Part shown: piece by piece, positions 10,063 to 31,199 of the stretch | Numbering within the stretch: the stretch's first letter is position 1 | How the letters are laid out: every line of letters begins with the position of its first letter | Assembly: GCA_030263535.1 (NCBI GenBank) | Contig: SZPB01000017.1 | Location: 1-34,610, forward strand | Source of the DNA: Cytophagia bacterium CHB2 | Lineage (GTDB): Bacteria; Zhuqueibacterota; Zhuqueibacteria; Zhuqueibacterales; Zhuqueibacteraceae | DNA: 34,610 nt | Direction: 5' to 3' | Notes under the pieces: generated by a model | The model's database searches: none | Told to the model about the DNA's origin: nothing | Seen by the model: the letters and a program-made list of their open reading frames with translations, nothing else | Program-made: the position numbers and the translations under genes

Positions 10063-10252
10063 CTAATTTTCTAATCGTTTTCTTCTCGAAATGATCTACG
10101 ATGCTGCAATCATTCCTTTTCATCGCAAGCGAAATATTCTCGCAACCGAAGTCATGCAAGTAAGATCGGCATGATGATCCAATATACATAAGCCGGACGA
10201 GCCTGAACCAAAAATAAAAAGCCTCGCGCAAAGACATGAAGGCGCAACGAAC

Positions 10253-10272
10253 CCGCAAAGTTTTCTTTGCGG
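10253..10272. repeat. Small hairpin in degenerate 'cgcaaag' repeat
   Basis: 8-bp arms CCGCAAAG / CTTTGCGG around a TTTT loop. It lies in a patch where cgcaaag-like words recur, as in common intergenic repeat debris. Confidence 0.4.
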
Positions 10273-13402: not shown

Positions 13403-14845
13403 ATGATGGAAATCTCCAAAGCGTTGGAAAGGACCATGCTCCTTTCCCACTTTACCATCGAAAAGGATCCTGATGCGATTCTCTGGATCGATTCCGAAGA
13501 TACGCTGCATCGCGTCAACGAAGCAGCCTGCCGAATGCTTGGTTATGCCCCGGAGGAGATGGTCGGCAAAAAGCCGCCAGAGCTTGGCTTTGGACTCGAT
13601 CCGGCCTCCGTCGAGGAACTTCGGGAGAATCTCAGGCAGCATGGCATCATAAGATTCGAGCGAACCATCGAGACCAGGGACGGTCGACAGCTTCCGGTTG
13701 AAGTCACGGGCAGTCTGGTCAAATTCGAAAATCAGGAATATTTTTGCTGGTTTGCGCGCGACATTACCGAACGCCGGAAGGCTGATGCGGCTCTCAAGCA
13801 AGCCTTCCATGAAATAGAGCAGTTAAAAAATCGCCTGCAAGAGGAAAATGTTTATTTGCAGCAGGAGATCAAGCTCACGCACAATTTTGAGGCGATTATT
13901 GGCAAGAGCCAGCGGATTCAAGAGGTGCTGCACGCGGTCGAGCACGTCGCGGAGACGGACGCCACTGTTCTTATTCTGGGCGAGACGGGAACGGGCAAGG
14001 AGCTGATCGCGCGCGCGATCCATAACATTAGCATGCGTCACGACCGCCCTTTGGTTAAGGTCAACTGTGCAGCGCTTCCAGCCACGCTGATCGAAAGCGA
14101 GCTTTTCGGCCATGAAAAGGGCGCCTTCACCGGCGCGTTGAAATCCAAGGTTGGCCGCTTCGAGCTGGCAAACGGCGGTACGATCTTTCTTGATGAAATC
14201 GGCGAGCTGCCGGTTGAGATGCAGGTCAAATTACTGCGGGTAATCCAGAGCGGTGAATTTGATCGTCTCGGCGGCACCCAAACGCTGCACACCGATGTGC
14301 GCATCATTGCCGCAACCAACCGCAACTTGGAAAAGGCCGTCGCCGAAAAGACCTTCCGCGAAGACCTGTTTTATCGCCTGAACGTTTTTCCAATCCAGGT
14401 CCCGCCACTCAGAGAAAGACGGGAAGATATTCCTCTCCTGGTAGATTATTTTGTCCGGGAATACGCCAAGAAGATTGGACGGGAAATCAACGTCATCTCC
14501 CGCAGCGCATTGTCAACACTGGAGAATTACAGTTGGCCGGGCAATATCCGTGAGCTGGAAAATATCATTGAACGAAGCGTGATCCTTTGTCGTGGCCATC
14601 AGCTTGAAATCGGCAATTGGTTTCATGGCGAATCCCAGACAGAAGAGGAAAAACAGCTTCGCACTTTAACTGAATTGGAACGCGCTCACATTTTGAAAGT
14701 TCTGGACTTCACCCACTGGCGGGTAAGTGGTCCGGATGGCGCCGCGCAAATTCTCGGAATCAATCCCCAAACTTTGGTTTCCCGCATGAAGAAATTGGGG
14801 ATTGAGCGAGTATCACGTGGGCAGCACGTCGATGAAAATCACTGA
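13403..14845 (+). CDS. PAS-domain sigma-54-dependent transcriptional activator
   Basis: 480 aa. A PAS sensor domain (about 15-125, ending with the PAC-type [13 protein letters not shown]) leads into a coiled coil (130-158). The AAA+ domain of bacterial enhancer-binding proteins follows: Walker A GETGTGKE at 193-200, sigma-54 loop GAFTGA at 240-245, Walker B IFLDEIGE at 261-268, arginine-finger region FREDLFYRL at 319-327. A Fis-type helix-turn-helix closes the protein ([24 protein letters not shown], about 444-470). All residues needed to remodel sigma-54 polymerase are present. The PAS domain replaces a response-regulator domain, so it senses a ligand or redox state directly. Neither flanking gene is an obvious partner, and I saw no -24/-12 promoter beside it. 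Confidence 0.95.
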
Positions 14846-14937
14846 TGGAGAGCATTTCTAGAGGCCATCGAAGAAATGAAACAGCTTGAACGATATAACT
14901 CGGATTGAAGTCATTGTAAACTACGAAGGGGTAAGCT

Positions 14938-15951
14938 ATGCCGAAAGTAATTCAAGAACAAAAAGGCGAAATCGTCATTTACAAGACCGAAGATGGGCTG
15001 ACTGCCATCGATGTTCGGCTGCAGGATGAAACTGTGTGGCTGACACAGAAGCAGATTGCCTCTCTCTTTGGCACGCAACGGCCGGCGATCACTAAGCATC
15101 TGCGTAATATCTTTAAAAGTAAAGAGTTGCAAGAGCGCTCAGTTAGTTCCATTTTGGAACATACTGCCCGCGATGGAAAAACCTATAGCACCAAATTCTA
15201 TAATCTCGATGCCATCCTCTCTCTCGGTTATAGAATCAATTCTCCGAGGGCTACGCGGTTTCGGATATGGGCGACTACAGTCCTTCGTGATCATCTTGTC
15301 AGAGGCTTTACGCTCAATGAGAAACGTCTTCAGGACAACAAGCAACGACTAAAGGAGTTGGAAGCGGCAGTAGCGTTGGTCGAGAAGGCAAAGTCGACAA
15401 AGCAGTTGTCGGCATCGGAAACGGCCGGCCTGCTGACCGTGATTACCGAGTACACGCGCTCATGGCTGCTTCTGCATCAGTACGATTCGGGGACGCTTCA
15501 AACCAAAGAACTGCATCGCAATGTCCGATTCCGCATCGATGAAGAGAATGCAAAGCAGGCCATCGCTCAACTAAAGAAAAACCTGATGGAGCGGGAAGAG
15601 GCCGGCGATCTGTTTGGGAGAGAAAGGGAACGAGGCGCACTGAAAGGAATTCTTGGCAGTATTGAACAAACATTTGGAGGTTCAGATCTCTATCCGAGTG
15701 TTGAAGAAAAAGCGGCGAACCTTCTGTACTTCATCATCAAAGACCATCCGTTTGTTGACGGCAACAAGCGCGTCGCCTCCCTGATGTTCATCTGGTTTTT
15801 GGAAAAGAATAATCTTCTCTTGGCTCCTGACGGGGAGCGCAAGATCAACGACAACGCCCTTGTTGCCCTGACGCTGTTGGTTGCGGAGAGCAATCCGAAG
15901 CAGAAAGACGTAATGATCGACCTTATCATCAATCTCATCGGCGACCAATGA
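14938..15951 (+). CDS. RhuM-family protein fused to a Fic/Doc domain
   Basis: 337 aa; good ribosome site (AAGGGG) before the ATG. The N-terminal half (about 10-125) is the RhuM/DNA-binding region: VWLTQKQIASLFGTQRPAITKHL, a helix-turn-helix split here at the Thr-Gln, then LDAILSLGYRINSPRATRFR. A helical linker follows (125-160). The C-terminal half (about 165-335) is a Fic/Doc fold with HPFVDGNKR at 270-278. The canonical AMP-transferase motif is HPFx(D/E)GNGR. Here Lys replaces the second Gly, as in Doc-type kinases, so target phosphorylation is at least as likely as AMPylation. No inhibitory (S/T)xxxE(G/N) helix was recognised. Such fusions occur in phage-related and toxin loci. It sits at the edge of a decayed accessory region. 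Confidence 0.9.
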   Translation: MPKVIQEQKGEIVIYKTEDGLTAIDVRLQDETVWLTQKQIASLFGTQRPAITKHLRNIFKSKELQERSVSSILEHTARDGKTYSTKFYNLDAILSLGYRINSPRATRFRIWATTVLRDHLVRGFTLNEKRLQDNKQRLKELEAAVALVEKAKSTKQLSASETAGLLTVITEYTRSWLLLHQYDSGTLQTKELHRNVRFRIDEENAKQAIAQLKKNLMEREEAGDLFGRERERGALKGILGSIEQTFGGSDLYPSVEEKAANLLYFIIKDHPFVDGNKRVASLMFIWFLEKNNLLLAPDGERKINDNALVALTLLVAESNPKQKDVMIDLIINLIGDQ

Positions 15952-15971
15952 ATGATGACATACGATAAAAA

Positions 15972-16045
15972 CGCTTGCAATCATTGCTCGGCTCAAACAG
16001 GAAAACGACAACGGGAATATCCCGCCGACCAGAGTGGGAATCGGC
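15972..16045 (+). pseudogene. Fragment of class III adenylate cyclase (74-bp repeat)
   Basis: The 74 bases match 17180-17253 in the cyclase remnant with one mismatch (G/A at 16024). The frame encodes LAIIARLKQENDNGNIPP and then TRVGIG, and continues into unrelated sequence up to a stop at 16096-16098. No start codon or catalytic residue is retained, so it is debris. Confidence 0.85.
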
Positions 16046-16117
16046 GATGAAAAAGAAGTTGGATTTATAACAAGCGTTGATTATATTTTGAACTAACGAT
16101 TCAACTTTAAAAAGACT

Positions 16118-16612
16118 ATGGAACAGAATCATTCCCGCAAGCGTGGCTCGACTGTCCGGCAATATCCAACGGCAGAATCAGCCTCCGTTGATCAAATCGG
16201 TAAAGTTGCAGAGCCGGTAGCTGCGTATGTCCGTGCGCCTTCTTTTGATGAATTGTTGAAATACGTCAGTCAATTAAATTTGCCTGAATTGGATCAATTT
16301 GTCTTTCGAGTCATAGCGTTGCGAGCTCGGCGTCGAGCTCCTAATTTGTCAAAAACTGAAACCGAATTGCTCATGAGAATCAATCAGGGACCGCCGCCTG
16401 ATATTCAACAACGTTTTAGGAAGCTAAATAGCAAGCGCAAAGCCGAAAAGATCACGCCGGATGAGCATCAAGAATTGCTGGCTTTGATTGACCGGATTGA
16501 ACAGTTTGATGTCGAACGCGTTAAATATCTTGCCGAGTTGGCGAATCTTAGAGGGACTTCACTAAAAGCTCTCATGAAAGAATTGGATATTCGCCCTCCT
16601 GCTATGGCATGA
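16118..16612 (+). CDS. Hypothetical protein usually paired with an HNH endonuclease
   Basis: 164 aa. After a variable basic N-terminus the conserved part begins at about residue 41 (SFDELLKYVSQLNLPELDQF). It is all-helical: ELDQFVFRVIALRARRRAP, LSKTETELLMRINQG, EKITPDEHQELLALIDRIEQ, LRGTSLKALMKELDI. I recognise this as a widespread family of unknown function often labelled by tradition as STAS/SEC14-like, with an HNH nuclease gene directly after it. Here the nuclease follows at once but survives only as its C-terminus (16611-16763). The gene itself looks intact. It may be an immunity or regulator partner; function unknown. Confidence 0.75.
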   Translation: MEQNHSRKRGSTVRQYPTAESASVDQIGKVAEPVAAYVRAPSFDELLKYVSQLNLPELDQFVFRVIALRARRRAPNLSKTETELLMRINQGPPPDIQQRFRKLNSKRKAEKITPDEHQELLALIDRIEQFDVERVKYLAELANLRGTSLKALMKELDIRPPAMA

Positions 16613-16763
16613 TCATTTTCGTTGGAGCGACGACTATACTCACATAGCGGGTTTGACTTCGATAGGGCGCGCGACAATTGAAGCTTTGCAATTAAATCGG
16701 CAAAATCTGGTCAATCTGCGGAGGATGCTTTATGCAATGGGAGAGCACCCGCCCTTCGAATAG
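16611..16763 (+). pseudogene. C-terminal remnant of an HNH endonuclease-family gene
   Basis: The frame from 16611 reads DHFRWSDDYTHIAGLTSIG, then RATIEALQLNRQNLV, ending GEHPPFE before a stop at 16761. This matches the tail that follows the HNH domain in the short CxxC-HNH family (DHF.W..D...I.GLTP.GRAT..AL.LNR). The zinc cysteines and HNH residues are gone. The remnant joins the end of the preceding gene at its stop codon, consistent with a deletion of the nuclease's first ~100 codons. Confidence 0.75.
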
Positions 16764-16782
16764 TTGAAATTAGTTTGAATTT

Positions 16783-17331
16783 TTGCTATATTGTTCGGGA
16801 TCACTGCTGTCCGGTTCAGGCAAACAACACGTCTTGAGCTCTTTCAAGACCATCGCCGAGCGCAACGAGATCATCAATTTGTTTGGCCAGCAGGTCTCAC
16901 CGGAGATTGTCGACGCGCTGCTGAAGCAGAAGCCGGACCCGATCATTCAGAAGCGGTCGGTTTGCATCATGTTTTTGGACATTAGGAATTTCACCCCTTT
17001 CGCCGCGATGCACACACCGGAAGAAATTATCGCTTATCAGAACGCCGTTTTCGGCTTTATGATTGACATCATCAACGGCCACCACGGCATTATCAATCAA
17101 TTCTTGGGTGACAGCTTCACGTCGACTTTTGGGGCGCCGCTCTCTTTCGGAAATGACTGTCGCAATGTCGTTGAGGCTGCGCTTGCAATCATTGCTCGGC
17201 TCAAACAGGAAAACGACAACGGGAATATCCCACCGACCAGAGTGGGAATCGGCATTCACGCCGGTGAAGTGGTAGCGGGCAATGTCGGCTCCTCGCTTCG
17301 CAAGCAGTATTCGATCACCGGCATAGAGTGA
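16783..17331 (+). pseudogene. Truncated class III adenylate/guanylate cyclase
   Basis: 182 codons. It begins within the linker typical of these enzymes (LFGQQVSPEIVDALL) and covers most of the cyclase domain: metal-binding Asp in CIMFLDIRNFTPFA, second metal Asp in INQFLGDSFTSTFGAP, and VGIGIHAGEVVAGNVGS. It stops at SITGIE, where intact relatives continue DxVNxAARLE. The transition-state Asn/Arg motif and the C-terminal strands are therefore missing, as are any membrane or sensor domains. It is not expected to be active. A 74-bp piece of it is repeated at 15972-16045. The DNA just upstream is the HNH remnant. Confidence 0.85.
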
Positions 17332-17411
17332 TGGCTTGCTTTTTAGAGAAAAGTTTGCTAATTTTTACTATTAAAGTTTGCGATTGAAAAACACATGCAC
17401 AAGCTTGGAAA

Positions 17412-17738
17412 ATGCCGATGATTCAACCACAACCAACTCATGCCAACACGGAGATCGACGCGCTGGTTCGAACCGGCCTCTATCAAAACCATGATGAGGT
17501 CATTTCCGATGCGCTTCGCAATCTCTTGCTCAACAATAAGGCACTCCGGCTGGAGCTTGCCATCGAGTTGTTCCGAGCCGATGAGGTTTCCCTTGGCCGC
17601 GCCGCTGAAATTGCCGGCATCGACCGCTGGGAATTTCAAGATATTTTGCACCAGCGCCACATTCCTATTATTATAGAAGCTGAGTCTGCCGAAGCGATGG
17701 ATAGGGATATCGCGCGGTTCTTTAGCAAAGAGCAATGA
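17412..17738 (+). CDS. UPF0175-family antitoxin
   Basis: 108 aa. The N-terminal segment (TEIDALVRTGLYQNHDEVIS, ALRNLLLNN) resembles a ribbon-helix-helix dimerisation region. The UPF0175 signature follows at about 60-85 (FRADEVSLGRAAEIAGIDRW, EFQDILHQRHIP). It overlaps the downstream PIN-like gene by 4 nt (ATGA), the standard antitoxin-toxin arrangement. Likely DNA-binding autorepressor that also blocks the DUF3368 toxin. ATGs at 17412 and 17418 are both possible starts. Confidence 0.85.
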   Translation: MPMIQPQPTHANTEIDALVRTGLYQNHDEVISDALRNLLLNNKALRLELAIELFRADEVSLGRAAEIAGIDRWEFQDILHQRHIPIIIEAESAEAMDRDIARFFSKEQ

Positions 17739-18235
17739 TCATTGCAGATACCAGCATTCTCTCAACGTTCGCGCGGATTCAGCGGCTGGATTTGCTGTTT
17801 GCCGTTGCGGAGACGCCATCTCTCCATCTCCCACCTGCCGTTCAAAAGGAAATCAAGCTTGGCCTGCAAAAAGGTTTGCAATTTCTTCAACCGATCATTG
17901 ATGCTTTGACTGCCGGAACACAGTTTCTGCCTATTGCGCTCATGGACGAGGAGAAGCGCTTGATTCCCACCCTGCCGAAAGCATTGAACGCCGGCGAAAA
18001 AGAGGGAATAGCCATTTGCCTCAATCGCACGGGCAATAAATTTCTTACCAATGACAAACGTGCACATAATTTTTGCATAGCCAATAATGTTCTTGCTCTT
18101 GATCTCAAGCGTATCCTGCGCCAACTTTGGAAAGCCGGTCACTGCTCGAAAGACGAGGTCCAAAAAATTATGGAAGATATGGAACGGAGCGAACCTGGCA
18201 TGGTGATCAAGGGCAAAGATGAGATCCTCCGATGA
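17735..18235 (+). CDS. DUF3368 PIN-like toxin
   Basis: 166 aa. It has a PIN-type acidic set: D5 in IIADTSIL, E39 in VQKEI, E88/E90 in NAGEKEGIAI and D107 in FLTNDKRA. With LALDLKRILRQLW following, this is the DUF3368 family, typically encoded right after a UPF0175 gene as here. Expected activity is Mg-dependent RNase, leading to growth arrest when unopposed. All acidic residues are present, so it should be functional. Translation is coupled to the antitoxin through the ATGA overlap. Confidence 0.87.
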   Translation: MIIADTSILSTFARIQRLDLLFAVAETPSLHLPPAVQKEIKLGLQKGLQFLQPIIDALTAGTQFLPIALMDEEKRLIPTLPKALNAGEKEGIAICLNRTGNKFLTNDKRAHNFCIANNVLALDLKRILRQLWKAGHCSKDEVQKIMEDMERSEPGMVIKGKDEILR

Positions 18236-18281
18236 TCAATCCACCAAAACCATTTTATAACAAAATTTAACGGAGAAAACC

Positions 18282-18422
18282 ATGGCCAATTCAGTTATTG
18301 GCTTGCCCATGAGCGTGGAGCAAGTGGCAGTTGCCATTCGACAAATGAGGCTTACGGATCGAAAGCGACTCAAGGATTTTTCAATTCATGAAACCGATTC
18401 GTTTGACACAACATGCTCGTGA
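18282..18422 (+). CDS. Small ORF, probable truncated antitoxin-like gene
   Basis: 46 codons behind a fair ribosome site (CGGAGAAAACC before the ATG). The start MANSVIGLPMSVEQVAVAIR, QMRLTDRKRLK resembles the first helices of short antitoxin-like proteins that precede toxins. It then runs out of frame into the next gene, with a stop at 18420. It overlaps the start of the DUF4258 gene by 35 nt. It may be a broken fusion of an antitoxin N-terminus; not recognised further. Confidence 0.4.
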   Translation: MANSVIGLPMSVEQVAVAIRQMRLTDRKRLKDFSIHETDSFDTTCS

Positions 18423-18648
18423 TCAATGTAAAGAGCGCGGAACAAAAGAAGCCGAGGTACGCCAGGCCATTCAACACGGGTCGCGCGAGCCGGCGAAGAA
18501 AGGCGGGGAACAGTGCCGTTTCAACTTTCCTTATGGCCGATCTTGGCAGGGCAACGACTATGCGATCAAGCAGGTCGCGCGAGTGATCAAAGAAAAGCGC
18601 GGGAGATCGTGGTCATTACCGTTTACACTTTTTACTTTTGAGAGATAG
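18388..18648 (+). pseudogene. DUF4258-family gene with a 3' frameshift
   Basis: The frame opens MKPIRLTQHARDQCKERGT and includes REPAKKGG, CRFNF, SWQGNDYAIKQVARVIKE, all typical of DUF4258 (BrnT-like/RelE-like fold, often with DUF2283). Relatives end KQV.PI..EE..EIVVITVYTFYF. Here the 0 frame gives RGRSWSLPFTLFTFER, while the +1 frame from about 18590 gives AREIVVITVYTFYF and stops at 18639-18641. One base is therefore missing or extra in the GAAAAGCG run near 18588-18596. This could be a real mutation or a homopolymer sequencing error. Confidence 0.8.
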
Positions 18649-18652
18649 ATCA

Positions 18653-18874
18653 ATGAAAATCAGTTATGATCCCGAAGTCGATGCGTTGTATATTCGCCTG
18701 ATTGAAGGAAATCATGAATGCCGCACGGTTCGGCTGAACGAAGAGGTCGCATTAAATATCGGTGCCGGCGAACGCTTAATTGGCATTGAGATTCTTGACG
18801 CCAAAGAAGTTTTGGGACAAGGCCAGTTGCCTCCGCTTCTTTTGGAAAACATTGCGTTGGCGCCAGCGGCTTAA
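18653..18874 (+). CDS. DUF2283-family protein
   Basis: 73 aa, ATG at 18653 after GAGAGATAG. The motif MKISYDPEVDALYIRLIEG, then GAGERLIGIEILDAKEVL, is diagnostic for DUF2283. These proteins usually follow a DUF4258 gene and are regarded as possible antitoxins; the biochemical role is unproven. With the restored frame of the upstream gene the two would be 11 nt apart. Confidence 0.88.
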   Translation: MKISYDPEVDALYIRLIEGNHECRTVRLNEEVALNIGAGERLIGIEILDAKEVLGQGQLPPLLLENIALAPAA

Positions 18875-18998
18875 CTGAGGACAACAGTCTGTGTCCGTAG
18901 GGTTCATTCCTCACGCCGTCGAAGGAGCAAACTTGGTAGCAATAGCCCAGTGAAGCCAGACTTGGACACACGAAAAAAGCAAGCAAGTAGTCCAGTCC

Positions 18999-21900
18999 TC
19001 ACTCAAGTTCTTGTAACAATTCCAACAAATATGAATAAACCGCTCCCCGCTGCATATAGGCATGGGCAAACTGATTCCTATAATTTCTTAAACATCCATA
19101 GCAAGTGGTTTCAGATGCACAACCACAGTAACCATTTACGCGCTCCGCTGCGGCTTCGATACAAGCACGAAGCATCTCTTTAAATTCTAATCGTGCCACC
19201 AAGCCAGCACCACCTGGGACATTGTCGTATAAGATGATAGACGGAAAGCTAGCTTGCATATCGTAAGCATTGACGGTTACATTGAGTTCATTAGAGGGTA
19301 CTTCGAGCACCTTCGCCGCTCCTTCTAAAATGGCATAAGCAAGAGTGAAAGCGAACCATTGAGGTTCAATATCCGAATTATGAGCTTTCCAAAATATGAT
19401 TTTCAGAACATCAGTCACAAAATCATGTCCCAACGAAAGAAATCTTTCCGGTCGGCAACGGCATTTTCTGCCTAAGAAATCTTCGTGTCCGTTCTCGATT
19501 TCTGCTCTCGTCATTTCACGAAACCCCGCGCCACACTTTGGACAAACGTAAAATCCTTGCCCTTTGTAACCCTCGCATAAAACCACCATTTCGCCTGGCG
19601 ATGTTTTGGTCAACTCGATGGCGCCATATTTTATAGTTTGCTGGCTAGTGTTTTTGAAACCCACGAAATAAGGTCGAGTCGAGAAGATTCGTTCAGTTTT
19701 GCGCCGCGGCTTGTCCGGACGTTTGTTTTTCGTCAGAAAACCGAATTGCGGCACGACGTAAAGCCTCGTGGTCATACCACGGCAACATTTGGTAAAGCTG
19801 GGATTCTGGCCAGTTTGCCAACGATCAAATTGGTTATGTTTGGCGCATTTGGCGTAATGCCATCGCGCCCATTCTTTTTCTGCAACTTTTTTCAAAGCAT
19901 AGGATTCCCATTCGAATTTATTGGCCACCAACTTACTCGTCGGTGCGAATTCAGCAATAGCGATGGAAAGATCGCGCTGCAGTATGACGGTTTCACTTCC
20001 GGTATTGTTGCTAACAGAATGGGTATCGAGCTCAACCACATCCACAGGGAAACCGTATTTGGGAATTACAACGGCGCGTGAAAGAAAACTCAAAACATCT
20101 TCCTTCGCAATTGTATTGGCACGTTTCTGCGCCCATTCCGCGCTACGAAATTGATTTGATTGTTTTGATTCGTCTTGAAATTGTTTGATGATCTTGAAAT
20201 CTGTTGCTACTCTCTCTTCAGCTCCCTTCAAAGCAGCGGAAATCAAGTGCTGAATCCATGTGCCGTCCTCCAGTCCTAAAAGGCGGCTTTGCTCGTCGTC
20301 TTTAATGATCGCTCTTAAAGAGGAAAGAATCTTGCCTTGGTCTTTTTGAAGATATTCCTCGAAATCTTTCACTGCCGATGGATTTTGTAAATCGGCAAAG
20401 AATGCTTCGACGTTTTTGAATCGATTCGGAAAAGCTCTGAGGAAAAAGGATAGCGCAGCCGCGGTCAAGTGTCTTATCGTGATTTTGGGGTTGTTTTTCG
20501 CAATCACTGGTGGACTCACTTTACCGGATATCATACGATCGGGATGGTCGAAATGATAAAGATCATGGGCATTTCGGCGGCAGTATGTTACTGCAAACCC
20601 GATGTTGCCTACACGTCGTCCAGCACGGCCAACGCGTTGGGCATAATTGAAAGATTCGGGCGGAACATTGCGCAGAAAGATTGTGTCAAGATCGCCCAAA
20701 TCAACTCCCAGCTCAAAGGTGGTCGAGCAGCTCAACACCTGAATTTTGTTGTTACGAAAATCGCGCTGATATTCACGCGCGGTCACTTTTGCCAATTGTG
20801 CGGTATGTTCTTCGACACGTAGAATCTCTGGCTGTAATTCGATATACAAATTGCGATAATGATTGGATTCCAGTTCGGACATTCTAATCGCGACAAGCTG
20901 CCCATGGCAATTGCTACGGTTGCAGATGTTTTTTACTGCCACATGCTGCAATCTGCCACAGACGAGACAGCGATAGATCGTGTCCTCGTTCGTCAGCAAT
21001 TGAATGCGCCACCAATCAGGATTCAAACGTTTTGCGTCGGTGATCTCATGAAAAATGGCTTCATGTGAAGATCGGGCCTTGTTATCTGTTTCTGAGAATG
21101 ATTGCCACACAGCGCGCAAGGCCTCACCCGCTTTTATTCGCGCAGCAGATTTTTCCATTCCGGCATGCTCGAAGATTTTAGCCATCCAGCGCGCTCTTCT
21201 CCCTCTGAGGCCATCCCAGCTACGGACGAAATGTTGGCTTCCTGGTTCGCCAATACGAACTTTCATTTGTGGCGATTGCAGCCCGAGATCTTTCCAATTT
21301 AAATTGACGAGCGGTGGCAGGTTTAGGTTTACAGCTTTATCAAGCCGAACGAAATTCAGTAAAGTTTCCAGTAGAGTGAACTTTTCCGAGTCGGATAAAT
21401 GCCATGGCAAATCATTCAAAAAACTTTCAACCTTAAACCAAGAGGGCCATTTCATGACATAACGAATTAGGCCAACACCTTCCAAAGATTGATTCGTTTC
21501 TTCAGCTAAAAATTCTGAGTAGATTTGTTTCCATATTTTATTTGTTCGCTCGATGTCGCCTGTAGTTTCCCTGAATAAGCGCTGTTCTTCGTATCTATTA
21601 GACAAAACACTTGCAAGCTCGTTAAAAGTGACTGAACCAGCAGAATCAAGCTTCCTGAGTGCATGCAAGATCAAGACACGTGAAAGGAGGCCTTGATAAC
21701 TATCGTCAAGATACCAGGCAAAAAAAGCAGCCTGTTGTCGGCTATCGGCAAATGCCAAAACTTTCTTTTTTTCTAATGGCAAATTTTGCACGAGAGCTGT
21801 GGCAATGACAGCGTTGGGGCCATCTGAGCCATGCACGATTTCGCGTACGGGGTCCGCAGCTTGATAACCGCAGGCTGCGCACTTCGAAATCTGATCTGGG

Positions 21901-23657
21901 TGTTTTTTGGAAGCTTCTTGCTGTTCAACAAATATGATTGTCGTATGGTTACAAACTGGGCGCGTGGGATGTCGCGAAATTGCGCCACAAGCCAAACAAA
22001 GCTGATGCAGATTGTTCCGGTTGAATTCATCTTCGTCGTTTTGCTCGACAAGTGAAATATCAACAGGACGGAAAAAATTGGCGCCAAAATCGATATCTCC
22101 AGGATCACGTATGGCTTCGCTCAACCTACTTTTGCTTACTTTGCCAACAAGATAATGCTGTCCACATTCCCGACAAATTGCGATTTCGAAAAAGGCGTGC
22201 CCTTGCTGCACACTCGTCCGATCCAGTAAAATTTTTTGCGTGACGGGTTGATCCTTTGTGCTCGCAAGCGATAGATATGCACCCTCCAATGAGCACAGGA
22301 AAAAATGGAAGCGGGCCGTCAACAGAGGCGAGCCATCAACTGGATTCTGCGCAGCAGCCAATAGACGAATGAGCCGAACTAAAGCTTCAACTTGTTTCTG
22401 TTCCTCGAGTTCTGGGAAAATTTTTGACGCGACATCCTCAACCTTTATTGCTTTCCCCGTCACTTGTTCACGTAGCTTAGTTGTGCGAGAATCGTTGTGA
22501 AGAATAATGTAAATAGCCTCTTCCCACTTACGAGCCTCGGCCAAATCGATCCCATGCTGTGAAGCAAGCGACGATAATTTTACCTTCAGTTCTGTAACCG
22601 AATTTGGCCGTGCACTTTCCAACAGTTTATAGTCTTCGAGTAAAAGCGTATATCGACTTTCCCCTGTTAATTCTTCAAATTTTCCTCTAATGATATGTTC
22701 GGGCTCAAATGTTTCCCCAAACAAGTCCTGCGCAAATTGTGCAACACGGCCAACATCTTTGCTATCACTTGCCAAAGTTGCACTAGTCGCAATACATTGA
22801 AATCCATCTCGACGTCCTCCTTCACTCAAACGTTGCTTCAGGCGGCGGAGCAACATACCCATCTCCATGCCTTTCGTGCCACGGTACTGATGTGCTTCAT
22901 CCAACACGATGAATTTCCACCATTGGGCGTTGCCGTTATCAAAAAGTGGACTATCGTGAGGACGAAGTAACATGAATTCTAGCATCGAATAATTCGTCAA
23001 CAAGATATGAGGTGGGGTGGCGCGCATTTGTTCGCGAAATACCAATTCACCTGGCAATCTATTATCCCAGGCTTCGCGGGCATTTCGATACTGATCATTG
23101 CGGTCTTCGGGAGTATCACCGACATATTGGCCAAAAGTAAATCTAAATCTCGAATGATACGCTTCCAGTTTTCTACAAATTTCTCCTAAACGTTCACGTT
23201 GGTCAAACGCCAAAGCATTCATCGGATAAAGAATGAGCGCGCGTATGCCGTTTCCTAACTGGCCAGACACAAATTCTTTATAAAGATGAAGCAAAATAGG
23301 CAATAAGAAGGCCTCGGTTTTTCCGCTGCCTGTCCCCGTAGCAATAACGACATTCTTGCCTAGCGCCGTAAAACGGATTGAATTTTCTTGATGGCAATAC
23401 AACTGGCGTTCGCCCTCCACTGCCTGCATGAAGCCTTGTTCCGGCTCAACCCCGAGAGTTTCTGTGAATAACTCGGTTGTATTCTTTGCTCTCTTGAAAA
23501 TCGGCGTAGCTTCTAAGTAAGGACCATTGGAAAGATGGCCAGCATCAAGCGTTTCCTCAAATGATCTGCGCAAGCCGTCATCTTTGAAATAGAACATGGT
23601 CTTGAGATATTGCAGATATTTCTCTTCAACTTTTTCAGCAAGAATATAAGGATTCAT
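18999..23657 (-). CDS. Large DEAH-box helicase with DUF1998-type C-terminus
   Basis: 1552 aa, superfamily 2. Q90 (Q motif), Walker A ATGTGSGKT at 106-114, TNYSMLEFML, DEAH at 253-256, SAT at 292-294. The second RecA half has LAFADSRQQAAFFA (634-647), STTFELGVDLGDLDTIFLRN and QRVGRAGRR at 1007-1015. Between and within the halves are Cys pairs suggesting zinc sites: C495/C498, C554/C557, C593/C596, C897/C900, C912/C917. The C-terminus shows DUF1998 (LYDNVPGGAGLV; CGCASETTCYGCLRNYRNQ). This is the architecture of MrfA/YprA and of the DruE and DrmA/DrmB helicases of Druantia and DISARM. It follows the zinc-finger gene by 13 nt. It probably translocates on DNA in defence or repair; exact role unknown. 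Confidence 0.93.
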   Translation of the reverse strand: MNPYILAEKVEEKYLQYLKTMFYFKDDGLRRSFEETLDAGHLSNGPYLEATPIFKRAKNTTELFTETLGVEPEQGFMQAVEGERQLYCHQENSIRFTALGKNVVIATGTGSGKTEAFLLPILLHLYKEFVSGQLGNGIRALILYPMNALAFDQRERLGEICRKLEAYHSRFRFTFGQYVGDTPEDRNDQYRNAREAWDNRLPGELVFREQMRATPPHILLTNYSMLEFMLLRPHDSPLFDNGNAQWWKFIVLDEAHQYRGTKGMEMGMLLRRLKQRLSEGGRRDGFQCIATSATLASDSKDVGRVAQFAQDLFGETFEPEHIIRGKFEELTGESRYTLLLEDYKLLESARPNSVTELKVKLSSLASQHGIDLAEARKWEEAIYIILHNDSRTTKLREQVTGKAIKVEDVASKIFPELEEQKQVEALVRLIRLLAAAQNPVDGSPLLTARFHFFLCSLEGAYLSLASTKDQPVTQKILLDRTSVQQGHAFFEIAICRECGQHYLVGKVSKSRLSEAIRDPGDIDFGANFFRPVDISLVEQNDEDEFNRNNLHQLCLACGAISRHPTRPVCNHTTIIFVEQQEASKKHPDQISKCAACGYQAADPVREIVHGSDGPNAVIATALVQNLPLEKKKVLAFADSRQQAAFFAWYLDDSYQGLLSRVLILHALRKLDSAGSVTFNELASVLSNRYEEQRLFRETTGDIERTNKIWKQIYSEFLAEETNQSLEGVGLIRYVMKWPSWFKVESFLNDLPWHLSDSEKFTLLETLLNFVRLDKAVNLNLPPLVNLNWKDLGLQSPQMKVRIGEPGSQHFVRSWDGLRGRRARWMAKIFEHAGMEKSAARIKAGEALRAVWQSFSETDNKARSSHEAIFHEITDAKRLNPDWWRIQLLTNEDTIYRCLVCGRLQHVAVKNICNRSNCHGQLVAIRMSELESNHYRNLYIELQPEILRVEEHTAQLAKVTAREYQRDFRNNKIQVLSCSTTFELGVDLGDLDTIFLRNVPPESFNYAQRVGRAGRRVGNIGFAVTYCRRNAHDLYHFDHPDRMISGKVSPPVIAKNNPKITIRHLTAAALSFFLRAFPNRFKNVEAFFADLQNPSAVKDFEEYLQKDQGKILSSLRAIIKDDEQSRLLGLEDGTWIQHLISAALKGAEERVATDFKIIKQFQDESKQSNQFRSAEWAQKRANTIAKEDVLSFLSRAVVIPKYGFPVDVVELDTHSVSNNTGSETVILQRDLSIAIAEFAPTSKLVANKFEWESYALKKVAEKEWARWHYAKCAKHNQFDRWQTGQNPSFTKCCRGMTTRLYVVPQFGFLTKNKRPDKPRRKTERIFSTRPYFVGFKNTSQQTIKYGAIELTKTSPGEMVVLCEGYKGQGFYVCPKCGAGFREMTRAEIENGHEDFLGRKCRCRPERFLSLGHDFVTDVLKIIFWKAHNSDIEPQWFAFTLAYAILEGAAKVLEVPSNELNVTVNAYDMQASFPSIILYDNVPGGAGLVARLEFKEMLRACIEAAAERVNGYCGCASETTCYGCLRNYRNQFAHAYMQRGAVYSYLLELLQELE

Positions 23658-23670
23658 TTTCGACCCGAGA

Positions 23671-25710
23671 CTATTTTAAGGTGAAGTCATTCCATTCAAA
23701 AATTTCGTTTCGATGTGGTTGCAACAAATGGGCAAAGATGTTTTCTTCCAAAATACTTTCAAACTTCTTGTAAAAGTTATGGCAGTAGAGACATTCGACC
23801 CAGATCGGGAGATTGGATATGTGAACTGAGCGAATTTCTTCCGTATCTTCAACGACGCGAAAACGTATTTGAGAGTAGCCGCCGTGGGCTTGTGTTCGTG
23901 CATCCACGCATTCATGTTGGATATGATAGATGATCGTGCTGGTGGGATTGTCTGCAAATGAAGTGGCATTGACGAAATGGTGAAGATTATACCCACACTG
24001 ATAAATTTTTTTAGGGAATTCATGCCCGTATAAGCCTCTTTTTTGTGCTTCAGTATAAGGCAAAACCCTGTAGCCATGTGTAGAGTGGGTCTTTCTGAAA
24101 TGAGATTCCGCTTCGTGTGAATCTGGCGACGCAAATGAGCAACCAGAGATTTTGCAGTGCCAAGCCTTCGTTTTGATTCTAAGCGCAGCAACCTTGTGTT
24201 CGCGCTTCGAATCCCTAATCCATAAATAGAAGATTGCACCATTTTCACGGAGCTCTTCAGCATCACAAAATTCTCGTAGGGCAATTGGGAATTTTCCTTT
24301 TTTGCGACGAAGTTTTCGAGGTTTGAAACCAGCATGAACTGAATTGACATGGGTTGTCTTTGGTATATGTACCCAAAGTACTTCTGCTGAAGTAGCTGCA
24401 AAGCGTGATTCTTCAATTTCAATCGGTTTGTTCTGCCAATCAATTCTTGTTTCGTCGGCGTGTTTATTCGTTATCCCCCACCGAAGTCGATGAGGTTCAA
24501 AATGATGTAAATGATGTAGAGGAATTGAATGCTGATCAAAGCTAAACCAATTGCATGTTATTTCAACTCCCCTAGCAGTTTTAAATCGTGGAAAATCTGT
24601 TTGATTTTGATCGACATGGATCAAATAACCGTGCCACTGATCAATTGTAAGGAATTCTTGTTCTTGAAATACAAAACAAGAGGAGGTGAGATTCAAGCAT
24701 TCCCAATTTGCGGGAACGACTAAAAGATTGATTCCAGCAGTTACACGTTTCGCCAAACGCCCCCGATTCAGGCCTTCATCTGATAACTTAAACCAAATAA
24801 TCTTTCGCGAAATGTTAAACGTCGAACACTCGTCGCCATTTTCATGGAAAAATCGCCACGAAATGCCATATCGCTCGCAAAGGGCTGGTGGCAGGATGGC
24901 ATTCGTGCGATTAAAGATTTTCAGTGTAAATAGTGGAGCAAAATCTCGCCAACTTTGAATCGCCGAAGCAATCTTGATATTGACAATTTGGATTCTTGTC
25001 TTAATCTTGGTGCTACTGAGCTTCTCAAATTTGATTAAAGTGGCTGATAACTCCGAAGCCTCAAGTATCCAACAGTGCGGCATTTGCAAAACAGATTCGA
25101 TCTGGACGGTTGTGCTCTCGTGAAGATGGCTTTCAAAGGATCGCGCGACACCCCCGTTCACAACGATTTCATTTGAATTGATCTGATTGACTTGTGCGCT
25201 GATAATTCCATTAGTCCGATCCACGCAGGAAAACACGGCTGGTGTGACAAATGTGGAGGTGAATTTGTGGCATATTATGGTTAACCCAAGACCTTTGAAC
25301 TCATCAGGCGACAAACGCTGGACTGCCGCGTGCTTCAGTTTGAATCTGTCGGCTCGAAAAATATTGATTCTCCATGGATTTACATAGCTAAAAATAGAAG
25401 GAGTGCTAAGTTCGTGACCGGCTTTGACAGTGGCACAATTAATTGACTCAATTGGGATGGCATCAATCTGTGGGGACAAAAGATGACAACTCGATAAAAA
25501 AACGGACAAGCTCTCAAAGGTAACGGCCTTCATATTCAGCCGTCTAATGGTGGGTGTTATGGCAAGTTCGCTTTCCACGGGTGCAATCTTTTGCTGCTGT
25601 TCGCCAGTGGGCCAAGTGACTTTCAAACAACGCGCACCGATCCTGGGTACAAGCACGCGATGAACTTCCGGCTTTGCAAAAGGAAAGAGCCTATGCATCA
25701 ACTCCTTCAT
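23671..25710 (-). CDS. Zinc-finger protein of unknown family in helicase operon
   Basis: 679 aa, not recognised as a named family. The N-terminal ~500 residues are beta-rich with no catalytic motif I can defend. From about 510 come zinc-finger-like elements. One is a clean C2H2 finger (C519-x4-C524-x12-H537-x4-H542). The second is irregular (C572, H596, H599, C601). The third is C640-x2-C643-x17-H661-x4-H666. A basic patch RKLRRKKGK at about 465 precedes them. A DNA- or RNA-binding role is therefore plausible. It starts at the ATG that overlaps the upstream gene's stop by 4 nt, and the helicase follows 13 nt later, so the three genes are one transcription unit. It could supply target recognition for the helicase (inference). 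Confidence 0.75.
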   Translation of the reverse strand: MKELMHRLFPFAKPEVHRVLVPRIGARCLKVTWPTGEQQQKIAPVESELAITPTIRRLNMKAVTFESLSVFLSSCHLLSPQIDAIPIESINCATVKAGHELSTPSIFSYVNPWRINIFRADRFKLKHAAVQRLSPDEFKGLGLTIICHKFTSTFVTPAVFSCVDRTNGIISAQVNQINSNEIVVNGGVARSFESHLHESTTVQIESVLQMPHCWILEASELSATLIKFEKLSSTKIKTRIQIVNIKIASAIQSWRDFAPLFTLKIFNRTNAILPPALCERYGISWRFFHENGDECSTFNISRKIIWFKLSDEGLNRGRLAKRVTAGINLLVVPANWECLNLTSSCFVFQEQEFLTIDQWHGYLIHVDQNQTDFPRFKTARGVEITCNWFSFDQHSIPLHHLHHFEPHRLRWGITNKHADETRIDWQNKPIEIEESRFAATSAEVLWVHIPKTTHVNSVHAGFKPRKLRRKKGKFPIALREFCDAEELRENGAIFYLWIRDSKREHKVAALRIKTKAWHCKISGCSFASPDSHEAESHFRKTHSTHGYRVLPYTEAQKRGLYGHEFPKKIYQCGYNLHHFVNATSFADNPTSTIIYHIQHECVDARTQAHGGYSQIRFRVVEDTEEIRSVHISNLPIWVECLYCHNFYKKFESILEENIFAHLLQPHRNEIFEWNDFTLK

Positions 25711-26204
25711 GAGGATTGAGGTGGTTTGGTCGTGTCTTTGACGGATTGTTGATTCAGCTCTCGGCTATGCACTTGAAGAATCACCTTTTGGATGCGCTCA
25801 AATGGTTCAAAGAGATTTTGCTTTTGCGAAATTTTCTTGAGTTCCGCAATATAACCGTTGTGATTTTCCGAAATGCTTTGAATATCGTTTTTTGATGATA
25901 TCAAAACGACTGGATAATCAAGAGCGCCTTCCACATACTGAAAGATCTCCAGTTCTTTGGTAATTACCGCATCTGGTTTTTCTGTTAGAGCCTCCAACAA
26001 AGGTTTGCCAAAAACTTCAACCTTCAAGTGGCGCTCAAAAATAGCGCCATAAAGTATCTTTTGCGCTGTCGTAGGGCGAACACAATCAGTCAGATGAAAT
26101 TCAAGTGGAACGGTATCTGGCTTTGTGAGCAAAATACCAGCGCGGAAAACTTTGTCATCTTCCAATGCTATAATATCAAAAAAAGCTAAACGATTGATAT
26201 TCAT
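25707..26204 (-). CDS. Small protein of unknown family, first gene of helicase operon
   Basis: 165 aa from the ATG at 26204; a TTG at 26216 adds four residues. It begins MNINRLAFFDIIALEDDKVF and contains RAGILLTKPDTVPLEFHLTD and CVRPTTAQKILYGAIFERHL, then VFGKPLLEALTEKPDAVIT, and a charged, probably disordered tail after residue 135. This mixed alpha/beta pattern looks conserved (ligand- or nucleic acid-binding rather than secreted), but I cannot name the family. Coupled by ATGA overlap to the zinc-finger gene. Confidence 0.7.
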   Translation of the reverse strand: MNINRLAFFDIIALEDDKVFRAGILLTKPDTVPLEFHLTDCVRPTTAQKILYGAIFERHLKVEVFGKPLLEALTEKPDAVITKELEIFQYVEGALDYPVVLISSKNDIQSISENHNGYIAELKKISQKQNLFEPFERIQKVILQVHSRELNQQSVKDTTKPPQSS

Positions 26205-26275
26205 TGTTGAACTCAATTATTACGAAACCCCAAAATGAAGAGCCATAAACTAAGATAGGCTCAGTCGGCTGAAAA

Positions 26276-26290
26276 CAATTTTAAAAATTG
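26276..26290. promoter_or_regulatory. Small AT palindrome upstream of the helicase operon
   Basis: CAATTTT-A-AAAATTG, 7-bp arms, about 70 nt upstream of the 26204 start. It could be an operator for a repressor of the operon. AT-rich, so chance is not excluded. Confidence 0.3.
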
Positions 26291-26565
26291 AACGTTGAGC
26301 CCGTTGGGTTTCAGAAGCGCCTCTCGACAAGTCAATACTCAAAATTAGTATACCAGCGCACGATTGATTCGCGGAGGATATTTGCAAGGGAAATCTTTAA
26401 TTTTTAAATATCTGAAGGGAGGTTTAGGCTGGCATTGACATCAAGCGGCGCTTTTTGGCTTGCTCATGAAAGCCCCTGTTGCGACTTGGGTTTAATTTTA
26501 ATTTCAGTGAATCGAATGGATGAAACCGCTCGATTTCAATTTCTAAACGGCTCCGCGGCCAGCGC

Positions 26566-26730
26566 TTACCTAGCGGCTTCGCACAGCCGTTCCACATCAC
26601 GCACCGGCGGTAGGCCGAAGAGCCTTTTGTACTCCCGAGTGAAGTGCGAAGCATCACCGTACCCCACGCGATAGGCAACACTTGCTGCGTCGAAACTCTC
26701 GCCGAACATCAGCCGGCGGGTTTCTTGGGG
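26566..26730 (-). pseudogene. C-terminal remnant of an AraC-family regulator
   Basis: The minus frame reads [20 protein letters not shown], then [21 protein letters not shown], the second helix-turn-helix of AraC/XylS proteins. The rest of the DNA-binding domain and the whole sensor domain are absent. Upstream residues do not resemble an AraC protein, so the gene is broken. Confidence 0.75.
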
Positions 26731-27410
26731 AGCCGAATCTGCTTTTGGAACTGCAGGGGATTCTTTAATGTTGTTGGTGGGTAAAAGCTTGGCGCTGGTG
26801 AATCCCAATGAGCGTTTCGATAGCCAGGTCTTGGTGCGGGTGCGCTGGCGCTAAGCCTTCACCGACGGGGTGATTTCTTAGCTGCCGAGAGAATTAGGCA
26901 AAAAGTAGGAACGATTGAGCTATCACCTTTTTGATCCCACCGATTATTATTTAGCAACTATTCAGCCAACCTCTTCCAGGTCATTCTGGCCGAATGCCCC
27001 TTCGGGAAGAATCCTTTTCGCACTGGCATAGACTTCGGCGAGCTCAGTCGAGCCGTGCTCGAAATGAAAAAAACGCTTCATTCCGCAACCCCTCCGCTTC
27101 AGATGCCATTTTCGACACTTCATCCGAATCCCGTTTGTTCATGGTAAGCTCAAACTTAAATTGTATCCGGTAAAGAAAACAAATTCACTCGCGTTACCGG
27201 CAAACAATTGGAGAAAACCAAAGATGCATTTCTGTTTGACAATGAGGTGAACGCTGGTCGTTAAACTTTTTCTACGGCTTCTCCAATGCACTGATAACTG
27301 GTTTCATGGCAAATTCCTGCGTTATGAGAGGTCATAAAATTTCTGATATTTCATAAAAACCCCGCTGCCTTCTCACCTTTTCCTCCCTTCTTTATCTACC
27401 CCGCAACACC

Positions 27411-27432
27411 ATGTAAGCAAAGATGCTTACAT
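27411..27432. promoter_or_regulatory. Perfect 9-bp palindrome upstream of thioredoxin-like gene
   Basis: ATGTAAGCA-AAGA-TGCTTACAT. Located about 105 nt before the chosen start at 27537. The symmetry and position fit a dimeric repressor operator (MarR/TetR/ArsR type). No T-run follows, so it is unlikely to be a terminator. Confidence 0.45.
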
Positions 27433-27536
27433 AAGCTGCAAGCCTTGCCAAAATCCAATTGGTACACCAATTGAATATCCAATACGGCGAGAGTTTAACA
27501 AAGTCAGCCGGTGGAAATCAACTTGGTAATGATTGT

Positions 27537-27896
27537 ATGGCATCAAAGGCATTGACAGACCGAAATTTCGACGCTGAGCTTGTTGCTCCGGGCAGAATGG
27601 TGTTGATCATATTTTACGATGAGAATTACAGCAATCGCTATCTCATCGAACCGGGCTTGGCGAAACTGGACGAACTGTATGGCCAGCGGGTGAAGTTCTG
27701 CCGCATCAATACGCGTGAAAACCCGAAAGTGGCCGAACGCTTTCGGATTTTTATCAGCCCGACGATTCTATTTTTTCAAGATGGAAAACTGGTTGAGTCG
27801 CTGGCGGGCACTTTTCCGCGCGTTGAGGTCGAGAACATGATCCGGAAACTGCTCACTGAAAAAGAAGCAGACCGATTGTCTCCCTCGAGAAACTAA
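27537..27896 (+). CDS. Thioredoxin-fold protein lacking the CXXC active site
   Basis: 119 aa from ATG 27537; an upstream in-frame start at 27459 would add 26 non-conserved residues. The fold is clear: MVLIIFYDENYSNRYLIEP aligns residue for residue with the thioredoxin FWAxWCGPCRMIAP segment, and ISPTILFFQDGK carries the cis-Pro (P75). The two redox cysteines are replaced by Tyr31 and Arg34, so it cannot act as a dithiol oxidoreductase. It may be a binding or chaperone-like protein. It is followed 18 nt later by a DoxX gene with a strong ribosome site, suggesting an operon. Confidence 0.85.
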   Translation: MASKALTDRNFDAELVAPGRMVLIIFYDENYSNRYLIEPGLAKLDELYGQRVKFCRINTRENPKVAERFRIFISPTILFFQDGKLVESLAGTFPRVEVENMIRKLLTEKEADRLSPSRN

Positions 27897-27913
27897 AAAA
27901 GGAGGTTACAACC

Positions 27914-28357
27914 GTGAAGTACATTGTATTGGTCGGAAGAATTCTATTCTCATTAATCTTCGTGATTGGCGGCATCAGCAATTTTTCGAAGCAGGCGATC
28001 GAGCACGGAGCAGCGCAGGGAATCCCATTGGCTGCGATTGCAGTTCCGCTCTCCGGAGTGATCGCGCTCTTGGGAGGACTCAGCATCGCCCTCGGTTATA
28101 AAGCCAAATGGGGCGCGTGGCTGCTGGTATTGTTCCTCGTGCCGGTCACGGTGATGACGCACAACTTCTGGGCCATACAGGATAGCATGCTGGCGCAGAT
28201 GCATCAGGTGATGTTCATGAAGAATCTTTCCATGCTGGGTGCTGCGCTTCTCATCTCTTACTTTGGCGCTGGCCCGTTGAGCTTGGACGGACGGCAGAAA
28301 ACACATTCAGAGCAACGCACACGGCGCCTGCAACATAGAGAAGCAGTGATCGCGTAG
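27914..28357 (+). CDS. DoxX-family membrane protein
   Basis: 147 aa; GTG start with GGAGGT at 27901-27906 and 7-nt spacing. Four hydrophobic spans: YIVLVGRILFSLIFVIGGI, IPLAAIAVPLSGVIALLGGL, WGAWLLVLFLVPVTVMTH and LSMLGAALLISYFGAG. The MHQVMFMKNLSMLGAALL segment is typical of DoxX. The C-terminus (KTHSEQRTRRLQHREAVIA) is unusually long and charged. DoxX proteins act in thiol/oxidative stress handling in some bacteria; here it neighbours a thioredoxin-fold protein. Confidence 0.88.
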   Translation: MKYIVLVGRILFSLIFVIGGISNFSKQAIEHGAAQGIPLAAIAVPLSGVIALLGGLSIALGYKAKWGAWLLVLFLVPVTVMTHNFWAIQDSMLAQMHQVMFMKNLSMLGAALLISYFGAGPLSLDGRQKTHSEQRTRRLQHREAVIA

Positions 28358-28450
28358 AGAACCAGACAATCAAGTCCGTAGGCTGCGAATGACGGAAGCG
28401 GCTTATGGCACAACCAATCCGTCAACACACAACCGAAAGGAGAAACTGAG

Positions 28451-29251
28451 ATGAACAAGATGATGGTCGCAGTCTTCGACAGCGAGACGGTGGCTTTTGA
28501 GGGCCTCAGCGCGCTCAAGGGACTCCACAAGGATGGGGACATCACGGTGTACGCAACGGCGGTCCTCGTGAAAGATGCCTCGGGCAAGGTGAGCGTGAAG
28601 CAGGTCGTCGAGCAGGGGCCCATCGGCGCCGGCCTCGGCATGTTGGTCGGCAGCATGGTGGGATTGCTGGCGGGTCCGGTCGGACTGGCCGTGGGAGCGT
28701 CGATAGGTAGCCTGACAGGCTTGATCTCTGATCTGAACAAGTCGGGCATCGACGTCCAATTCGTGGACGAGGTCTCGAACGCCCTCGGCTCTGGCAAGGC
28801 GGCGGTCCTGGCCGATGTGGAAGAGAGCTGGACGGAGCCCGTTGACGCACGAGTCAGGAAACTGGGTGGCATGGTTTTCCGACGCCTGCGCTCCGAGGTC
28901 GTCGAGGACCAACTGGCGCGGGAATCCGCTGCGTTCAAGGCTGAAGTGAAGCAGCTCAAGGAGGAGCTGGCTCAGGCAAACGCTGAGAACAAGGCCGCGA
29001 TCCAGGCGCAGATCGACGAGGCGAAGAATAAGGCCCAGGTGATGCAGGACCAGGCCAAAGGCCAAATCGATCAAGCAAAGCGCGAAGCCGAGGCGAAGAT
29101 CACCGCCCTGCAGGGACAGCTCAAGCAGGCGAGCGACCGGCAGAAGGCAAAGATTGAGAAGCGCATCGCCGAAGTAAAGGCTGACCTCGAGGCACGTCAC
29201 GCCAAGCTCCAGGAAGCTGGACGACTTGCCAAGGAGGCATTGGCACTTTAG
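28451..29251 (+). CDS. DUF1269-type membrane protein with long coiled-coil tail
   Basis: 266 aa, ribosome site AAGGAG before the ATG. Residues 1-50 form an alpha/beta domain (MNKMMVAVFDSETVAFEGLS, GDITVYATAVLVKD). A glycine-rich hydrophobic hairpin follows (GAGLGMLVGSMVGLLAGPVG, about 57-95), then DEVSNALGSGKAAVLADVEE. This is the DUF1269 pattern. From about 150 the protein is a long Ala/Lys/Glu/Gln coiled coil of about 110 residues with heptad-like repeats. The coding DNA is visibly richer in G/C (ctc, gtc, aag) than its neighbours, hinting at acquisition from a GC-rich donor. Function unknown; relatives are stress-linked. Confidence 0.82.
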   Translation: MNKMMVAVFDSETVAFEGLSALKGLHKDGDITVYATAVLVKDASGKVSVKQVVEQGPIGAGLGMLVGSMVGLLAGPVGLAVGASIGSLTGLISDLNKSGIDVQFVDEVSNALGSGKAAVLADVEESWTEPVDARVRKLGGMVFRRLRSEVVEDQLARESAAFKAEVKQLKEELAQANAENKAAIQAQIDEAKNKAQVMQDQAKGQIDQAKREAEAKITALQGQLKQASDRQKAKIEKRIAEVKADLEARHAKLQEAGRLAKEALAL

Positions 29252-31023: not shown

Positions 31024-31087
31024 GATTGGGGAATACAGTCTTAATCTTTACAAGTGATATCTTTGCAAAAAAAAGCAAAGACTTTTT

Positions 31088-31147
31088 CCAACGGATAGAA
31101 GAACCCAACTGAAAAAGCTTTATCCGTTGGGTTCTTCTATCGGTTGG
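31088..31147. repeat. 22-bp imperfect inverted repeat
   Basis: Arms 31088-31109 and 31126-31147 pair at 21 of 22 positions (CCAACGGATAGAAGAACCCAAC and its complement) around a 16-nt loop. Located 64 nt after the S2P stop. It could act as a terminator, or be an intergenic repeat or miniature element remnant. Confidence 0.75.
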
Positions 31148-31199
31148 AGATTATCTTTTTGGTTGCGGCTCGTCCGCGTTGGGAAGAAGCAGGAAAAGG

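Follow-up and report, generated by a model that had tools for sequence, protein, structure and literature searches.

Gene content of the locus

The window analysed here, meaning the whole stretch of 34,610 nt, corresponds to contig C17 in a draft genome of 7.0 Mb (G000) from a host in the phylum candidate division KSB1. We examined three adjacent genes on its minus strand (Table 1). All three reading frames are open and intact, and they are tightly packed: gene 1 runs 4 nt into gene 2, and a gap of 13 nt separates genes 2 and 3, exactly the layout given in a preliminary description of this DNA. For gene 1, a TTG 12 nt upstream of the ATG is also a possible start.

Table 1. Features of the three-gene locus, in window coordinates
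Feature	Position	Strand	Basis or remark
Gene 1, 165-aa protein P0003, function-unassigned family	25707..26204	-	ATG start at 26204
Gene 2, 679-aa Ig-like / C2H2 zinc-finger protein P0002	23671..25710	-	ORF, finger motifs, AlphaFold2 model
Gene 2 residues 290-390, domain common to the helicase-free pair of G069/G070	24541..24843	-	hhalign 98.4%, ~90 columns
Gene 2 residues 404-514, Ig-like beta-sandwich (predicted)	24169..24501	-	AlphaFold2, VIA-align
Gene 2 zinc finger 1 (C519, C524, H537, H542)	24085..24156	-	Invariant in trio copies; also in L016; weak ZFY-finger match
Gene 2 zinc-finger-like unit 2 (C572, H596, C601)	23908..23997	-	Invariant in trio copies; hairpin + helix in model
Gene 2 zinc finger 3 (C640, C643, H661, H666)	23713..23793	-	Invariant in trio copies; weak ZFAT-finger match
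Gene 3, 1552-aa DruE-type YprA-family helicase P0001	18999..23657	-	Pfam, PADLOC, trees
Helicase motif I (ATGTGSGKTEAF)	23307..23342	-	Sequence, alignment
Helicase motif II (DEAH)	22890..22901	-	Sequence, alignment
Helicase motif VI (QRVGRAGRR)	20613..20639	-	Sequence, alignment
MZB (DUF1998) zinc-binding domain	19089..19343	-	Pfam; protein stops 28 residues beyond
Transferred cassette	18959..26525		Sole DNA here common (88%) with the G081 locus, different genus
Island around the cassette	14812..27331		12.5 kb replaced by 145 bp in same-species genome G075

The trio lies inside an island that is variable within the species, because genome G075 joins position 14811 to 27332 by 145 bp; one of its contigs (L096) carries window positions 7899-14811 joined to 27332-28549. 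The trio is absent from same-species and same-genus genomes. The preliminary description had placed it among toxin-antitoxin-like genes and gene fragments, in an island setting, and this is what we found, although G075 lacks the island. Its other contents include a RhuM/Fic protein, a nucleotide-cyclase fragment, a UPF0175 + PDC-S70 pair, a DUF4258 protein and an AraC-type HTH fragment. The window ORFs that we scanned did not include an integrase.

Several other features of the window were recorded along the way. The UPF0175 antitoxin-like gene overlaps a 166-aa gene (17412-18235), and both match the PADLOC candidate PDC-S70. The nucleotide-cyclase domain (16783-17331) matches the central part of PycC (154-311 of 374) and is probably a fragment. 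A peptidase C39/ABC exporter, a second ABC ATPase, a MauE-like membrane protein and a thioredoxin-like protein make up a peptide-export-like cluster at 3267-9761. Finally, a dispersed repeat of ~140 bp with a palindromic core, a MITE-like insertion with dozens of matching places in KSB1 genomes, occupies 31045-31182; G075 and G076 lack it at the corresponding position.

The helicase

Gene 3 has the Pfam domains DEAD, Helicase_C and MZB (the former DUF1998), and the kind of helicase named in the preliminary description was borne out by these domains and by PADLOC, in which DruE models rank first. The top match was DruE1 (625 bits, E 1e-187); the best non-Druantia family was DpdJ, at 91 bits. 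Core motifs I, II (DEAH), III, V and VI are all intact in the alignment, and distant solved relatives include 9tu7 (E 2e-70), 9wae (E 6e-45) and the YprA/MrfA structure 6znp. To place the helicase within its family, we used two trees. In a tree of 24 sequences, the trio helicases clustered with Druantia helicases, separate from ARMADA, with support of 100/100. In a tree with an MrfA-like outgroup, a long branch that leaves the deep order unsure, the trio helicases formed a 99/98 branch with those of G061 and Ruminococcus phage NatCom_28274 and the split helicase of G021. The sister of this branch was the group of cyanobacterial Druantia II/IV-like helicases, with weak support (81/90), and the MrfA-like helicase of the same genome fell far from gene 3. 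Judged by profiles and phylogeny, gene 3 is specifically a DruE-type helicase, inside the Druantia part of the YprA family.

Complete members of the trio-helicase branch end 27-28 residues past MZB, and the branch thus has no C-terminal nuclease. The corresponding stretch is 107-121 residues in clostridial Druantia I-like helicases, 147-155 in ARMADA, 356-392 in the cyanobacterial group and 404-412 in Druantia III (two proteins). The nuclease tail is missing from the G080, G081, G061 and Ruminococcus phage helicases too, so its absence looks ancestral to the branch.

The partner proteins

Genes 1 and 2 had no match in Pfam, PADLOC, NCBIfam or PHROGs, and a PADLOC scan of all members of the two family alignments returned only coiled-coil family matches, from one member. 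We compared the profiles with hhalign against DruB, DruC, DruD, two DruH proteins, cyanobacterial partners and the Ruminococcus phage partner and found nothing, in small alignments that leave room for remote homology; the probability against the two DruH proteins was 0.1%.

The product of gene 2 had been described as a zinc-finger protein, and it does carry three C2H2-type motifs, whose ligands are unchanged across all three trio copies. The top matches in a profile search were solved C2H2 fingers, all weak (E 0.06 to 0.7). The AlphaFold2 model of gene 2 (pLDDT ~80) is usable only from residue 404 on, and that of residues 1-327 is unusable. We read residues 404-514 as an Ig-like sandwich because nearly all VIA-align rows there were Ig-type folds, at middling Z scores of about 5-6; three hairpin-plus-helix units follow it in the model. 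Foldseek with this model gave no match below E 0.3. Long-helix structure matches to residues 208-275 were disregarded, as pLDDT in that region is 25-45. For gene 1, the AlphaFold2 model was unusable (pLDDT 37), and a hidden PD-(D/E)XK nuclease was considered and dropped when no fitting motif was seen by eye. Gene-1-like sequences may also occur in other phyla.

Recurrence of the trio and relatives without the helicase

Among 82 KSB1 genomes, helicases with more than 70% identity over most of their length were found in G000, G081 and G080. In all three, genes 2 and 1 lie upstream in the same order and with the same 4-nt overlap (gene 1 of G080 is split across two contigs), and recurrence of this order and overlap in G081 and G080 argues that the arrangement is not due to chance. 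The neighbourhood search suggested by the preliminary description thus found the trio again in two further genomes. The three complete copies known all come from one bacterial family, and G080 and G081 belong to one genus. Identities for gene 1 were 88% in G081, 68% in G080 (across the contig break) and 36-38% in G069 and G070; for gene 2 they were 80% in G081 and 41% in G080, with partial homologs in G064, G069 and G070. Two other helicases are cut off by contig ends: G078 retains a 77-residue helicase end (70% identity), and in G061 a helicase of 53-55% identity sits at a contig start with its upstream genes out of view. Below about 55% helicase identity, the upstream gene differs wherever it is visible; the helicases of G021 and the Ruminococcus phage (about 30-48% identity) have another upstream gene than the trio's. 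A grouping of these two upstream genes into one family did not survive a shuffle test, in which 17 of 200 shuffles did equally well.

Some relatives of genes 1 and 2 have no helicase beside them. In two KSB1 species (G069 and G070; L017:8801-10980 and L018:7793-9963), gene 1 precedes the gene for a 532-534-aa protein, of which about 90-100 residues are shared with gene 2; a TPR-like protein and a LytTR-type regulator flank this pair, in apparently housekeeping, ordinary chromosomal surroundings. In G064, again with no helicase, the C-terminal 480 residues of a 764-aa protein match the gene 2 protein of G080 (hhalign 99.7%), with a coiled coil ahead of them. The expectation that the two small genes would be conserved with the helicase therefore held for all three helicases above 70% identity, but the association is not exclusive, given the pair in G069 and G070 and the zinc-finger half alone in G064. 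Because such relatives occur without the helicase, genes 1 and 2 appear from these comparisons to be families that exist independently and were combined with a DruE-type motor as a recruited module. At L016:8245-10539 we noted a solitary protein with an apparent N-terminal membrane segment, a coiled coil and gene 2-like Ig-like and zinc-finger parts.

Outside KSB1, we found no relatives of genes 1 or 2 in plasmids or viral contigs, and none in 101 genomes of a clostridial genome's phylum in a search that had no positive control. A genome-contig scan with the helicase as query returned mostly Druantia I, and when viral contigs were scanned again with a wider helicase alignment, only helicases at 24-27% identity came up. 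None of the fetched loci other than those listed here carried gene 1 or 2. Matches of Candidatus Manganitrophus plasmids to the gene 1 family (E 2-4; profile E 0.004) were set aside as too weak. On such plasmids, weak gene-1-like matches lie directly after PRTRC ThiF genes (L101:4001-4258 and L102:4001-4186).

Transfer and selection

The DNA shared with the G081 locus is a single block, essentially the trio. Between G000 and G081 the helicases are 90% identical with a dS of 0.38, whereas RpoB is 84% identical with a dS of 1.37. Between G080 and G081, of one genus, RpoB is 92% identical and the helicases 70%, a comparison that weighs less in the argument as the G080 assembly has 9% contamination. 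Because the helicase dS is far below that of RpoB and the relationships conflict, sequence divergence indicates that the trio was transferred horizontally as one unit. We calculated dN/dS between G000 and G081 at 0.13 for the helicase, 0.31 for gene 2 and 0.22 for gene 1; by this measure each of the three genes is maintained by purifying selection, and gene 2 changes fastest. In G081, the cassette adjoins a UvrD-type helicase and a PD-(D/E)XK nuclease on the opposite strand (L014:1256-5244).

Proposed function and alternative explanations

On balance, we favour the reading that these three genes make up a horizontally mobile Druantia-like defence operon. The trio keeps the DruE motor and for that reason probably works like a Druantia system. 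In Druantia III, DruE, a helicase of the YprA type with distinct PLD nuclease domains, loads on 3' ssDNA and unwinds 3'-tailed DNA; DruH, the likely sensor, has three Ig-like domains thought to sense phage and diverges faster than DruE (PMC13192584). In Mycolicibacterium smegmatis, Druantia III prevents phage DNA from circularising and replicating (PMC13316683). The Ig-like fold predicted for gene 2 recalls DruH, which argues for the Druantia-like defence reading, and the sensor role proposed for gene 2 rests on this fold class, not on DruH homology. As a sensor or adaptor, gene 2 would recognise a phage component or DNA structure and recruit or license the helicase, and the conserved pairing suggests gene 1 as its obligate partner. 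By homology to solved and assayed relatives, the SF2 helicase (DEAH) would bind ssDNA-containing intermediates and move 3' to 5'; having no nuclease tail, it may remodel or block replicating phage DNA or expose phage DNA to host nucleases. In this order of events, gene 2 with gene 1 would sense infection or mark the target, and the helicase would then act, without cutting or with host nucleases cutting. This exact division of labour among the three proteins is doubtful. Somewhat less doubtful, and put forward tentatively, is that the locus represents a further Druantia type, in which a nuclease-free DruE is joined to a recruited two-gene recognition module (the 165-aa protein and the Ig/C2H2 protein) that occurs alone elsewhere in the phylum, giving non-degradative immunity with zinc fingers that help to recognise the invader.

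The relatives without a helicase could also mean that defence is the work of the helicase by itself, or together with a partner not seen here, and that genes 1 and 2 form a separate two-gene unit with another function that shares its operon by chance. The G069/G070 pair and the lone finger half in G064 fit this, as does the other upstream gene beside more distant helicases of the same branch, such as that of the Ruminococcus phage (L054). However, both genes, in the same order and with the same overlap, accompany all three helicases above 70% identity with visible upstream DNA, and the three genes moved as a single block between G000 and G081; we consider such independence unlikely. The loss of partners and nuclease from a classical Druantia system, leaving a decayed remnant, would account for the missing nuclease tail, the lack of any known Dru partner and the fragments of other genes nearby, yet each of the three reading frames is open and evolves under purifying selection, and the nuclease-free state is common to the helicases of G080, G081, G061 and the Ruminococcus phage and so looks ancestral to the branch. 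Decay is accordingly the most improbable of the explanations that we considered.

The YprA family includes repair enzymes such as MrfA (PMC12458937), with the DEAD, Helicase_C and MZB domains in common, and the trio might by analogy be a DNA-repair operon like MrfAB (YprA/YprB) that aids survival of DNA damage. This is very unlikely: PADLOC and the tree put the helicase with Druantia and far from this genome's own MrfA-like helicase, an MrfB-like exonuclease is missing, and the trio is patchy, island-borne, transferred, and absent from same-species and same-genus genomes. It is also quite unlikely that the main target of the Druantia-like operon is plasmid or other mobile DNA instead of phages. 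Sequence does not separate the two targets, and a helicase that senses DNA structure could conceivably act on either, but in the Druantia relatives that have been characterised the target is phage (PMC13192584, PMC13316683).

Several immune systems have a DruE-type helicase as their common motor. A branch that retains this motor, without a nuclease tail and with unrelated Ig/zinc-finger partners, offers a direct test of whether the helicase alone is the effector, and lets one ask whether such systems evolve by exchanging recognition modules. Current detection profiles would tag loci of this kind merely as orphan DruE.

Comparison with known systems

The preliminary description had recognised no partner of the named systems, and our searches agree: with PADLOC, hhalign and scans of the window ORFs, we found no DruA-D, DruH, DrmC or methyltransferase. 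With DISARM and ARMADA the trio shares a YprA-family helicase. It does not have the split DrmA/DrmB with DrmC of DISARM, as helicase and MZB are in one protein and genes 1 and 2 have no PADLOC match, and the scanned window ORFs contain no SNF2-type helicase. The helicase lies outside ARMADA in the tree, and its motif II is DEAH, whereas the aligned ARMADA-branch helicases have DELH (DEIH in the archaeal one). The 3'-5' exonuclease partner of MrfAB was likewise not found, and genes 1 and 2 have no Pfam match.

The general mark of Druantia, a DruE-type helicase with a DEAD/DEAH core, MZB and DruE as best profile, is present. Like Druantia I, the trio has a DEAH motif and a helicase that best matches the DruE1 profile, but DruA, B, C and D were not found (PADLOC on genes 1 and 2 and their homologs; hhalign against clostridial DruB, C and D) and the helicase has no tail of ~107-121 aa. 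Type IV is DruE with DruF and DruL (PMC8565338). Types II (DruMFGE) and IV are linked to the trio by the weakly supported sister position of the cyanobacterial helicases, which have two upstream genes; in contrast, the trio shows no match to DruF, G, L or M in PADLOC and no hhalign likeness to the cyanobacterial partners, and the cyanobacterial helicases carry 356-392 aa after MZB.

The likeness to Druantia III is broader and comprises a DruE-type helicase, an upstream partner gene, an Ig-like fold in the partner and a partner that evolves faster than the helicase. Unlike type III, with 404-412 aa after MZB, the trio helicase has 28 aa there and thus no PLD nuclease tail; the trio also adds the 165-aa gene and C2H2 fingers in the partner, which showed no DruH sequence similarity in PADLOC or hhalign. 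The Druantia III-like branch of the YprA family most often has no nuclease domain (Bell et al. 2025, PMC12458937), and in this trait it resembles the trio helicase. Ruminococcus phage NatCom_28274 (PV036439.1, L054) has a nuclease-free DruE-type helicase of the same branch as the trio's and a single partner gene immediately upstream with a 4-nt overlap, but that partner has 916 aa and no detectable similarity to genes 1 or 2. The phage helicase and 916-aa gene (L054:6245-13668) lie directly behind an endolysin gene and are a candidate phage-borne defence pair.

From the sequence comparisons made here, the trio fits no named Druantia type that we checked, failing every partner comparison as well as that for the type III nuclease, and should be assigned to none of them. 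The preliminary description had proposed an undescribed defence system; that the gene set matches no named system checked still stands, but an unrelated new system it is not, since PADLOC and the trees make the helicase DruE-type. Two of its proteins match no described defence component, and the trio is probably a variety, so far unlisted, of a bacterial immune system of known kind.
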